Assembly (NCBI RefSeq): GCF_002798405.1
Contig: NZ_PGGV01000027.1
Span: 185,894 to 249,893, forward strand
Direction of reading: 5' to 3'
DNA: 64,000 nucleotides
DNA from: Glycomyces xiaoerkulensis
Lineage (GTDB): Bacteria > Actinomycetota > Actinomycetes > Mycobacteriales > Micromonosporaceae
The position numbers were made by a program, and so were the translations under genes. Positions 17,013 to 51,083 of the stretch are shown here, in pieces. The notes under the pieces were generated by a model that was not told where the DNA came from, did no database searches, and saw nothing but the letters and a program-made list of their open reading frames with translations. The number at the start of each line of letters is the position of its first letter. Position 1 is the first letter of the stretch.

Positions 17013-17027
17013 GCCGCTAGCGCGAGC

Positions 17028-17069
17028 GCGGGCGTCGGACCGCCGGTTGATCGGCGGTCCGACGCCCGC
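17028..17069. terminator. bidirectional terminator with perfect 18-bp stem
   Basis: Bases 17028-17045 and 17052-17069 are perfect reverse complements (18 pairs) around a six-base loop, GTTGAT. It lies between two convergent genes, the cellulase ending at 17012 and the PD-(D/E)XK-like gene ending at 17078, so it can terminate both. There is no T-run on either side, as is common in high-GC actinobacteria. Confidence 0.8.
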
Positions 17070-17077
17070 GGCGCTGG

Positions 17078-46766: not shown

Positions 46767-48070
46767 GCGAACTCCTCCCGGTCGAACGGCCCCACGGCCG
46801 CGGTCGTCATCGGTTGCGACAGGATATCGGCCGCCACGGCCCTGACATCGTCGGACGTGACCGCCTCGTTGCGCGCCAGGTCCCGCTCCAGGGTCTGGAG
46901 CTCGCCGTACAGCAGCTCGTCGCGGCCGAGCCACTCCATGCGCGCACCGGAGTCCTCGGCGGCCATGAGCACGCCGACCTGGTACATCTTCTTGCCGCGC
47001 CGCAGCTCCTCGTCGCCGACGCCGTCGGTGGCGGCCCGCTCGATCTCGGCCAGGATCAGGTCCCGGACCCGGCGGGACTTGTCGGGACTGCATCCGGCGT
47101 AGACGCTGAACAGCCCCGTCTCACCGAAGTAGGCCGAACCGGAGCGGACGGTGTAGGCCAGGCCGCGCTCCTCGCGGATGATGCGGAACAGTCGCGAGGA
47201 CATGCCGCCGCCGAGGATGTTGTCGAGCACCCCGAGCGCGTACATACGCGGGTCCCGGCGCGACATGGTGCGGCAGCCGACCACCAGGTGGGCCTGCTCG
47301 GTGTCGTCGCGGGCGACCACGAGCGGCTCCGGGTCCACCGCCGCCACGTCGTATCCGGGTCCGGACGGCCGCCGCGGCGGCACCTCCGGTCCGGGCCGCA
47401 TCGGGGCGAACGCCTCCCGCACCAGCTTCAGGGTCTCGTCGTGGTCGATGCCGCCGGCGACGCTGACGACCAGGTTCGAGTCCACGTAGTGCCGGTCGTA
47501 GAAGGCCCGGACCTGCTCGGCGGTCAGGGCGCGGACGGACTCGGCCGTGCCGGCGATGTCGCGGCCGAGCCCGCCGTCGCCGAACAGGGCCCGGTTGAAA
47601 TGCTCGAACACCTGCTCGGCCGGGTCGTCGGCGGAGGCGGCGATCTCCTCCAGGATCACGCCGCGCTCGACTTCGACGTCGTCAGCGGCGATCCGCGAGC
47701 CGCACACCGCATCGCCGAGCACGTCGACCGCCAGCGGCAGGTCCTCGGCGAGGACCCGCTCGTAGTAGCAGGTGTGGTCGCGGGCGGTGTAGGCGTTCGA
47801 CTCGCCGCCGACGGCCTCGATCACCCGCGAGATCTCCTCGGCCGAGCGCTTCTCGGTGCCCTTGAACAGCAGGTGCTCCAGGAAGTGGGAGGCGCCGGAC
47901 TCGACGGCCGGCTCGTCGCGCGAGCCGACGCCCGCCCACGCGCCGAGCGTGGCCGACCGCATCGACGGGATCGCTTCGGTAACCACACGCAAACCGCTGG
48001 GAAGCACGGTGCGATGCACCGTGCTTCCCAGCGGTTCGTTCGCCAGCGTGTGAGTCTGAGGGAGACTCAT
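46763..48070 (-). CDS. M16-family zinc peptidase
   Basis: The 435-residue pitrilysin-family peptidase has the inverted zinc motif HxxEH in SHFLEHLLFKGT with the downstream glutamate in VILEEIAAS. The second, inactive-type half contains GGGMSSRLFRIIREERGLAY. Relatives next to pnp (mpp/PqqL-type) process small proteins or precursors. The ATG abuts the pnp stop, so the gene is the second cistron of pnp. Codons 12-26 lie in a perfect 21-bp inverted repeat. Confidence 0.92.
   Translation of the reverse strand: MSLPQTHTLANEPLGSTVHRTVLPSGLRVVTEAIPSMRSATLGAWAGVGSRDEPAVESGASHFLEHLLFKGTEKRSAEEISRVIEAVGGESNAYTARDHTCYYERVLAEDLPLAVDVLGDAVCGSRIAADDVEVERGVILEEIAASADDPAEQVFEHFNRALFGDGGLGRDIAGTAESVRALTAEQVRAFYDRHYVDSNLVVSVAGGIDHDETLKLVREAFAPMRPGPEVPPRRPSGPGYDVAAVDPEPLVVARDDTEQAHLVVGCRTMSRRDPRMYALGVLDNILGGGMSSRLFRIIREERGLAYTVRSGSAYFGETGLFSVYAGCSPDKSRRVRDLILAEIERAATDGVGDEELRRGKKMYQVGVLMAAEDSGARMEWLGRDELLYGELQTLERDLARNEAVTSDDVRAVAADILSQPMTTAAVGPFDREEFA
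47992..48036. repeat. perfect 21-bp inverted repeat, three-base loop, inside the M16 gene
   Basis: Bases 47992-48012 and 48016-48036 are exact reverse complements around GAT. In mRNA this would be a very stable hairpin covering codons 12-26 of the M16 peptidase, about 34 bases after its start. A possible regulatory, processing or termination site; such long perfect symmetry within a coding sequence is not expected by chance. Confidence 0.9.
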
Positions 48071-50446
48071 CTACTCTTCGTTGTCCCCGTCTCCGCTGCG
48101 GCGGCGGCGCCGGCGGCGCTGGCCGCCCTCGCCCCCGCGGTCGTCGTCGCGGCGCCCGCCTTCGCGGCGGGGGCCGCGGGAACGGTCGCCCCGTCCGCTT
48201 TCGCGGCGCTCGGGCCGGCCCTTCTTGTAGCCCTCGGGCTCCTCGCCCTCCGGGTAGACCTTGTCGAGGTAGATCTTGCCGCGGTTGTCGATGTCGCCGA
48301 TCTCCACCTCGAGCTTGTCGCCGACCGAGAGCACGTCCTCGACGCGCTCGACGCGCTTGCCGTCGCCGACCTTGGAGATGTGGAGCAGGCCGTCGCGGCC
48401 CGGCACCAGCGAGATGAACGCCCCGAAGTCGGTGGTCTTGACCACCGTCCCGAGGAAGCGGTCACCGACGTTCGGCAGGGTCGGGTTGGCGATCGAGTTG
48501 ATCGTGTCGACCGCGGCCTGGGCGGCCGAGCCCTCCTCGGCGGCGACGTAGATGGTGCCGTCGTCCTCGACGGTGACATCGGCGCCGGTGTCCTCGGTGA
48601 TCTGGTTGATCGTCTGGCCCTTCGGACCGATGATCGCGCCGATCTTCTCGACCGGGATCTTCAGCGTGGTGATCCGCGGCGCGGTCTCCGACAGCTCCGC
48701 CGTCTCCGAGATGGCCTCGGCCATGACGTCGAGGATCGCGTGCCGGGCGTCGTTGGCCTGGCCCAGCGCCCGCACCAGCACCTCCGAGGGCAGCCCGTCG
48801 AGCTTGGTGTCGAGCTGGAGGGCCGTGACGAACTCGCGGGTGCCGGCGACCTTGAAGTCCATGTCGCCGTAGGCGTCCTCGGCGCCGAGGATGTCGGTGA
48901 GGGTCACGTACTCGGGCCCGGCGTCGGTCTCCTCGCTGATCAGGCCCATCGCGATGCCCGCGACCGGGGCCTTGATCGGCACGCCGGCGCTCATCAGGCT
49001 CATGGTCGAGGCGCAGACCGAGCCCATCGAGGTCGAGCCGTTCGAGCCCAGGGCCTCCGAGACCTGCCGGATCGCGTACGGGAACTCCTCGCGGCTGGGC
49101 AGGACCGGGATCAGGGCGCGCTCGGCGAGCGCGCCGTGCCCGATCTCGCGGCGCTTGGGCGAACCGACGCGGCCGGTCTCCCCGGTCGAGTACGGCGGGA
49201 AGTTGTAGTTGTGCATGTAGCGCTTCTTCGACACCGGCGAGAGGGTGTCGATCGCCTGCTCCATGCGCAGCATGTTCAGCGTGGTCACGCCCAGGATCTG
49301 GGTCTCGCCGCGCTCGAACAGGGCCGAGCCGTGCACGCGCGGGAGGACGCCGACCTCGGCGGCCAGCGGCCGGATGTCGACCGGGCTGCGGCCGTCGATG
49401 CGGACGCCTTCGGCGATCACGCGGCGGCGCACCAGCCGCTTGGTCAGCGAGCGCAGCGCGGCACCGAGCTCGCCCTCGCGGCCCTCGAAGTCGGCGCCGA
49501 TCTTCTCGAGCATGACGGCCTTGACGCGGTCGAGCTCGGTGCCGCGCTCGGCCTTGTCGGCGATGGTGAGCGCCTGGTCGAGCTCGGCGCCCACGGCCGA
49601 CTCGACGGCGGCCAGGGCGTCGTCGAGGTATTCGGGGTAGAGCGGGAACTCCCCGGTGGGCTTGGCGGCGAGGTCGGCCAGCTCCCGCTGGGCGCGGACC
49701 AGCTCGGCGATGGCCGGCTTGACCGCCTCCAGGCCCTCGGCGACGGTCTCCTCGGTCGGCTTGGTGGCGCCGCCCTCGACCAGCTCGACGGTGTTGTCGG
49801 TGGCCTCGGCCTCGACCATCATGATCGCGACCTCGCCGGAGTCGAGGACCCGGCCGGTGACGATCATGTCGAAGGTGGCGCGGGCGGTCTGCTCGTGGGT
49901 GGGGAAGCACACCCACTGGCCGTCGATGAGGACGGCGCGGGTGGACCCGAGCGGGCCGGAGAAGGGCAGGCCGGAGAGCTGGGTGGACATGGAGGCGCCG
50001 TTCATGGCGACCACGTCGTACTCGTCGGCGGCGTCGACCGCGAGGATCGTGCCGATGACCTGGACCTCGTTACGCAGCCCGGAGACAAACGACGGCCGCA
50101 GGCCGCGGTCGATCAGCCGGCAGGTCAGGATCGCGTTCTCGCTGGGGCGGCCCTCGCGGCGGAAGAACGAGCCGGGGATGCGCCCGGCGGCGTACATCCG
50201 CTCCTCGATGTCGACCGTCAGCGGGAAGAAGTCGAGGTGCTCTTTGGGCCCCTTCGACATCGACGTGGTCGACAGGACCATGGTGTCGCCCATCTGGACG
50301 ACGGCCGATCCCGGGGCGAGCTGGGCGAGGCGCCCGGTGCCGAAGACGATTTCGCGGGTTCCGAAGTCACCGTTGTCGATGACCGCCGTGGTGTGGTGTT
50401 CTCCGAGGTTGAAGGCCTCGGGTGTCCGTTCGTTCTGGTCGGACAT
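48071..50446 (-). CDS. pnp: polynucleotide phosphorylase
   Basis: The 791-residue exoribonuclease/polymerase has two RNase PH domains ([20 protein letters not shown] and [14 protein letters not shown]), a helical linker, a KH domain ([20 protein letters not shown]) and an S1 domain ([20 protein letters not shown]). It ends in a basic Arg/Gly-rich tail. It phosphorolyses RNA from the 3' end and in actinobacteria also makes heteropolymeric tails. It follows rpsO, with a large hairpin between them. Confidence 0.96.
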
Positions 50447-50685
50447 TGAGTGTCGTACTCCTCATGATCGATGGTTCGGAGCGCGACAGCCATGCTCGGG
50501 CCGGTCTTCGATCGAAGCACTCGGTCCACGCCCGGTACGGACGCGGGCGGTCCGGATGCCACTACCGAGGACCGGCGGTCTCTGGCGGCCGCACTGGCCC
50601 CGGCGCACGGGGCACTTCGGTTCGAGCGTGGTGCTCTGCGCCCACCCTACGTTACTAGGAGTGCCTGGACGGACGGGCGGGCAAA

Positions 50686-50721
50686 CGCGGAAGGGAGCGG
50701 ATCGGCCCGCTCCCTTCCGCG
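50686..50721 (-). terminator. rpsO 3' hairpin, perfect 15-bp stem
   Basis: CGCGGAAGGGAGCGG (50686-50700) pairs exactly with CCGCTCCCTTCCGCG (50707-50721) around a six-base loop, nine bases after the rpsO stop. On the minus strand TTTG follows the stem. In E. coli and streptomycetes the rpsO-pnp intergenic hairpin is a partial terminator and RNase III target that controls pnp; the same is likely here. Confidence 0.8.
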
Positions 50722-50729
50722 AAAGCTGT

Positions 50730-50999
50730 TCAGCCTCGGATGCCGAGCCGCTCGATGAGCGAACGGTACCGGGTGATGTTCTCGGTGCGGAGGTACTTGA
50801 GCAGCCGACGGCGCTTGCCGACCAGCAGCAGCAGGCCACGACGCGAGTGGTGGTCGTGCTTGTGCTCCTGGACGTGGGCGGTCAGGTCCTTGATCCGCGC
50901 GGTCAGCAGCGCCACCTGGACCTCGGTCGAGCCCGAGTCGCCCTCGTGGGTGGCGTACTCCCGGATGATCTCCGACTTCTTGGCAGCTTCGAGCGCCAT
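50730..50999 (-). CDS. rpsO: 30S ribosomal protein S15
   Basis: The 89-residue protein is a complete S15: [40 protein letters not shown], the [20 protein letters not shown] loop and [20 protein letters not shown]. It binds 16S rRNA in the central domain. The ATG at 50999 follows AAAGGT; an upstream in-frame start at 51008 is less likely. It precedes pnp as in most bacteria. Confidence 0.97.
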
Positions 51000-51083
51000 A
51001 GCGAACACCTTTCATTCTGCGGTCGGCCCGCGGTGCCGAGCAGGCCGGCCGGTTCGGATAACCGGACCAGGCTAGCAGCGGTT

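Follow-up and report, generated by a model that had tools for sequence, protein, structure and literature searches.

A U-less hairpin written into the first codons of an M16 peptidase gene of Glycomyces: a probable 3′ boundary of the pnp transcript

Hairpins without a U trail have been described as a class (PMC8355165). No poly-U tail emerges across the mapped 3′ ends of Streptomyces avermitilis, where a U-rich motif is found in about 25% (PMC8780764), and 3′ ends without poly-U occur in Streptomyces, though the U-lacking ends are weaker (PMC8780764, PMC8355165). As to pnp, the gene for polynucleotide phosphorylase (PNPase), a review reports that the enzyme is impeded by stem-loops and, in the legend of its Fig. 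1, depicts the S. coelicolor gene with a rho-independent terminator downstream (PMC5872136). In the titles and abstract openings of the papers listed by literature searches no hairpin at a pnp–M16 junction is described, this being weak evidence of absence.

The window considered here, a stretch of 64,000 nucleotides of a Glycomyces genome, carries on its minus strand a cluster in the order rpsO, hairpin, Actino-pnp RNA, pnp, M16 peptidase gene and dapB-like frame (Table 1), the names rpsO, pnp and dapB being derived from the translations and from the place of the genes. The stem located behind rpsO is followed by TTT and is likely the rpsO terminator. Nothing separates pnp from the peptidase gene, the ATG of the latter abutting the TAG of the former, and the hairpin with which we are concerned lies just beyond, its stem starting 35 nt from the first base of the pnp stop codon. 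It is formed by an inverted repeat whose arms of 21 nt (47992–48012 and 48016–48036) are 100% complementary and enclose a loop of 3 nt; the perfect 21-bp repeat with a 3-base loop that the initial annotation had reported within the M16 coding sequence is real, with 21 of 21 pairs. The stem widens to 23 pairs (47990–48038) when the adjoining G-U and C-G pairs are counted, the perfect core corresponding to codons 12 to 27 of the M16 ORF.

Table 1. Features of the pnp region; coordinates are those of the window, and + values are nucleotides from the first base of the pnp stop codon
Feature	Position	Strand	Remarks
pnp-end hairpin over M16 codons 11–27	47990..48038	-	core 47992–48036, loop 48013–48015
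pnp stop codon TAG, anchor of the hairpin	48071..48073	-	stem starts at +35
M16 peptidase ORF, 435 aa	46763..48070	-	PF00675 residues 28–175, PF05193 residues 182–362
pnp (polynucleotide phosphorylase), 791 aa	48071..50446	-	named from sequence and Actino-pnp leader
Actino-pnp RNA (RF01688), leader upstream of pnp	50500..50576	-	63.5 bits, gathering 47.7
Gene-end hairpin after rpsO, intergenic, stem score 16	50686..50721	-	
rpsO (ribosomal protein S15)	50730..51008	-	named from sequence and place

The minus (transcribed) strand of the region is predicted to fold, over 91 nt, with −58.1 kcal/mol as against −30.1 (sd 3.6) in shuffled sequences (z −7.8), in keeping with the very stable mRNA hairpin that had been proposed over codons 12–26; the opposite strand of the palindrome gives z −7.9. 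When the stretch is recoded with peptide and codon usage held fixed, none of 1000 sequences scores as high as the actual stem (23), the null distribution having a mean of 6.2 and a maximum of 20. A 113-nt query searched against the 4.37-Mb genome of the organism (E ≤ 0.001) matches the palindrome site and its own reverse complement only, i.e., a single place rather than the several genomic copies of a repeated or mobile palindrome. An Rfam element was rejected, no family scoring above its gathering threshold at 47990–48038, where only microRNA-like matches far below gathering are obtained and the Actino-pnp RNA (RF01688) has no match.

The loci of relatives with which the hairpin was compared were orientated by tblastn, part of them having been hand-picked so as to be spread over genera and families; duplicate genomes (L033–L036) and the window site itself (L001–L002) were left out before the counts. 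All 22 Glycomyces loci examined (window included) have a stem with a score of 16–23 at the hairpin codons and in 18 of them no other stem of the locus (2.9–4.3 kb) equals this score, while CCGCTGGGCGGCACGGTnCGnCGnACCGTGCTGCCCAGCGG or close variants of it are found at the same codons in many loci belonging to other genera of the family. Pairing exceeds, at p ≤ 0.01, what peptide and codon usage account for in 19 of 21 Glycomyces loci and in 31 of the 41 other family loci that lack the second hairpin described below (50/62 together). Pairing is also retained as the letters change: pair 21–27 is C-G, G-C, A-U, G-U or U-A, depending on the relative; in locus L157 a Leu-to-Val and a Ser-to-Thr change together preserve pair 7–41 as G-C and, in L010 and L115, a TTG leucine codon stands opposite an AAC asparagine codon, the two being paired as U-A. 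Contrary evidence is provided by a C-A mismatch at that pair in 10 of 48 distinct rows of the alignment.

Covariation, determined with 22 hand-chosen representative rows, scores 0.273 as against 0.111 in shuffles (0/500), with 8 pairs changed on both sides, and amounts to at most 0.069 when the alignment is slid. A larger alignment consists of 57 rows (48 distinct), namely the 62 loci without a second hairpin minus 5 in whose peptide the motif is without its second Gly; over its 48 distinct rows the paired fraction is 88.1%, compared with a shuffle maximum of 83.8%, and the doubly changed pairs, 8 with a shuffle maximum of 9, are not in excess. These comparisons indicate that the hairpin is conserved and selected as a base-paired element. 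The premise that the symmetry resides at the DNA/RNA level is borne out by the excess over codon shuffles in Glycomyces and by the compensatory changes; the companion statement that the protein sequence at this point is ordinary has to be given up, for the stretch encoded by the hairpin precedes the Pfam M16 domain, which begins at residue 28, and its letters covary with the pairing.

Displaced versions of the stem were also observed. Two loci of the same order (L064 and L065) have a long stem of 18 and 20 pairs, respectively, with 2 mismatches, shifted in the 3′ direction to M16 codons 19–33. In L067, L107 and L137 a stem of 12–15 pairs, having another register and other letters, occupies the same M16 region (GTGGCGGGCGACCTCGGAGG...) and has apparently been re-registered.

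The position of the stem is linked to the pnp stop codon. Stems with a score of at least 13 starting 0–70 nt past this codon are present, class-wide, in 108 of 186 orthologous junctions (21/21 in Glycomyces, 53/76 in the rest of the family, 14/25 in the same order and 20/64 in the same class), many pnp–M16 junctions outside the family being without a strong stem. Equal intervals located upstream, inside pnp, contain such a stem in 0/159, 0/179, 3/186 and 1/186 cases, and those downstream of the pnp-stop zone in 17, 8, 7 and 8 of 186. The 186 loci are what is left of 199 orthologue loci after subtraction of 13 without the pnp end in the fetched stretch (L107, L112, L125, L126 and L131 among them); 3 of these 13 have pnp upstream and a stem of 14–16 after it. 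The sequences of the pnp-end stems differ widely among families; 36 of the stems are closed by a tetraloop, 5 being C(UUCG)G and 9 of the GNRA type. Three loci of one family (L105, L169 and L171 of f33), which we take to be Streptomyces, have, at +19 or +20, a pnp-end stem closed by a C(UUCG)G loop.

Further evidence comes from the loci in which a second stem, with a score of at least 12, is interposed between the pnp stop and the M16-embedded site, a situation encountered in 35 of the 76 family loci outside Glycomyces. The median score of the embedded core is 10 in these 35 loci and 17 in the 41 loci without a second hairpin (p 2e-6), and 13 versus 23 when the comparison is made by genus (p 0.003). 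Eight of the 35 loci (genera g50 and g51) have also lost the PLGG/ALGG-type peptide; among the 27 that keep it the median of the core is 11 versus 17 (p 1e-4) and, by genus, 11 versus 23 (p 0.01), the genus-level p rising upon removal of the 8 peptide-less loci. Likewise, the synonymous pair 9–39 is paired in 88% of the rows without and 50% of those with a second hairpin, and the synonymous pair 18–30 in 83% and 46%, respectively, 27 of the 35 rows being used for the second-hairpin group. Both hairpins, with a core beyond chance, coexist in 6 of the 35 loci (L071, L128, L129, L132, L145 and L159), and the core of some loci that lack the second hairpin is situated 90–253 nt from the pnp stop. 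A phylogeny-aware paired test went in the expected direction (about 1.6 against, 0.1 with) on 5 pairs, which are far too few. From these comparisons it would seem that relatives tend to keep the hairpin, even at the cost of amino-acid changes, unless another hairpin replaces it.

To appreciate how unusual such a stem is at a gene junction, co-directional junctions with a possible start at most 30 nt from the stop were scored in 64 kb plus 220 kb of the same genome and in 100 kb and 80 kb of two relatives, all possible starts being considered and genes being called by a simple script rather than taken from curated annotation. Of 94 junctions, 5 reach a score of 13 and 2 of these are pnp, leaving 3/92 otherwise. 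Strong hairpins are commoner at other gene ends (e.g., at 22 of 72 convergent ends of the same genome). The 14 strongest other gene-end stems sampled in this genome have 1–3 T in the next 10 bases and no T-run. One gene-end hairpin of the window (17027–17070, plus strand), with a stem score of 20 and no T-run, lies 17 nt past a stop codon.

The hairpin under study resembles these stems. Strong and single, it lies shortly past a stop codon, and the 10 bases after its stem contain 4 T; over the 108 pnp stems the corresponding count averages 2.07 and never exceeds 4, bases further on giving a slightly lower mean of 1.52. A canonical (L-shaped) rho-independent terminator was rejected, no T-run following the stem and a pattern scan finding none at the hairpin. 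We propose, on comparative grounds, that the hairpin is probably a U-less 3′ boundary of the pnp transcript, i.e., a terminator and/or an exonuclease stop, located inside the next coding sequence; three sets of comparisons support this reading, namely the selected pairing, the place tied to the pnp stop and the weaker embedded core beside an unrelated, nearer hairpin. Since in Glycomyces M16 starts directly at the pnp stop, the hairpin must share its bases with M16 codons 11–27. The proposal made at the outset of a partial terminator separating pnp from peptidase–dapB comes close to the outcome of the comparisons.

The sequence of events could be as follows. Once the ribosome has left at the pnp stop, the nascent RNA would fold ~35 nt downstream; the folded stem might then either halt RNA polymerase part of the time, acting as a U-less, I-shaped terminator, or block 3′–5′ exonucleases after termination has occurred further on. 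By either route the end of the pnp mRNA would be fixed at the stem and the expression of M16–dapB partly uncoupled from that of pnp, whereas a ribosome starting M16 in time would melt the stem, thereby favoring read-through.

Among the alternatives, the one that survives best, although it must be considered unlikely, is cleavage of the stem by RNase III, which would separate pnp from the M16–dapB mRNA and feed the autoregulation of PNPase, as does the rpsO–pnp leader. With 21–23 uninterrupted pairs the stem is long enough for a dsRNA enzyme, and RNase III is reported to cleave the Streptomyces rpsO–pnp transcript, with a site within the pnp ORF too (PMC10126417). However, the S. coelicolor RNase III cuts described in the same report flank an internal loop, which this stem does not have, and the enzyme is stated to need about 20 bp (PMC5775266), whereas 11 of the 35 second stems score just 12, several of them with stable tetraloops, and are short for RNase III.

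A more speculative reading, doubtful in our opinion, gives the hairpin itself an autoregulatory role: PNPase stalled at the 3′ element of its own mRNA would gauge its own activity, which would be why the boundary is kept, is re-invented at non-homologous positions and even dictates, throughout the family, N-terminal residues of the adjacent protease.

Far less credible is a control of M16 translation, in which the hairpin would either brake the ribosome or keep it, after termination, at the adjoining ATG and so assist a restart. The geometry of the junction would suit such a function, the M16 ATG directly following the pnp stop in 21 of 21 Glycomyces loci with the stem starting 26–36 nt further on. 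Yet of the 108 pnp stems only 81 lie within an open M16 frame, the other 27 preceding any possible M16 start. Moreover, the stem remains with pnp when M16 is elsewhere: a stem of 13–19 at +10 to +52 is present in 14 of the 16 genomes whose fetched stretch has no M16 gene after pnp, the best stems of the other 2 scoring 5 and 9. These 16 cases came from 23 pnp loci, of which 3 cut before the stop, 1 cut 112 nt after it and 3 with M16 downstream were left out; the 26 genomes behind them were selected non-randomly, either because M16 was not found or because pnp was not beside it, and 3 gave no pnp. Conversely, two of three displaced M16 genes, 6–7 kb from pnp, are without the stem (best scores 7 and 7), and the third (L197, 19 kb from pnp) has a stem of 13 with one mismatch. 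The hairpin thus appears to be an element of pnp and not of the peptidase gene and, because it goes with pnp and not with M16, a brake on M16 translation, which had been among the functions first suggested, is unsupported; the brake/restart element was dropped.

Two observations on the pnp loci of these genomes may be added. L226 and L227 (G034 and G033) are two members of the family whose pnp is 80% identical to that of the window and in which M16 could not be matched at E ≤ 1e-60; pnp is followed by a 16-pair hairpin in one and by none in the other. In L237, L239, L242 and L245 the pnp match runs through one TGA, probably reflecting an open frame past the gene end.

That the palindrome is a by-product of the protein, the motif PLGGTVxxTVLPSGL being self-complementary by chance when written in GC-rich codons, is highly improbable. 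Stretches of TV...TV with ACS and GTS codons do pair easily, the mean score of recoded sequences being already 8–10, but an excess over codon shuffles is displayed by 50 of the 62 loci without a second hairpin as opposed to 6 of the 35 with it (6 of the 27 that keep the peptide). Equally improbable is an assembly artefact, a mobile palindrome or a DNA dyad for a binding protein, all of which can give rise to long perfect palindromes: the palindrome is conserved in place in 22 Glycomyces genomes and occupies a single place in its own, while its letters change and the pairing is kept, which argues against a sequence-specific binding site; the DNA-binding dyad and the mobile repeat were both dropped. 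As to the artefact, a worry raised in the initial annotation, stems scoring 16–23 at the same codons in 21 other Glycomyces genomes, together with those at many loci from the family's other genera, make it very unlikely.

If the hairpin is the 3′ boundary of the pnp transcript, the locus represents a natural experiment on transcript ends devoid of a U-tract in GC-rich bacteria, one and the same gene end being marked by different, non-homologous hairpins. Where no intergenic room is available, the codons of the next protein accommodate the hairpin, codons and amino acids of the two arms having changed in step, from which follows a testable prediction as to which actinobacterial hairpins define mRNA ends, and also a warning that conserved N-terminal peptides may reflect constraints on the RNA rather than on the protein.

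Compared with known systems, the hairpin shares with the Actino-pnp RNA (RF01688) the nature of a cis element of the same operon, with the difference that the latter is located upstream and the former downstream of pnp. The terminator placed behind pnp in S. coelicolor occupies the same position after the same gene, but the review labels it rho-independent and, in the passages concerned, does not describe conservation, overprinting or replacement (PMC5872136). The closest likeness is with the U-less (I-shaped) gene-end hairpins of actinobacteria, with which our hairpin has in common a strong GC-rich stem situated shortly past a stop codon and the lack of a U-tract, and from which it differs in being overprinted on the initial codons of the following gene, whose amino acids it constrains.
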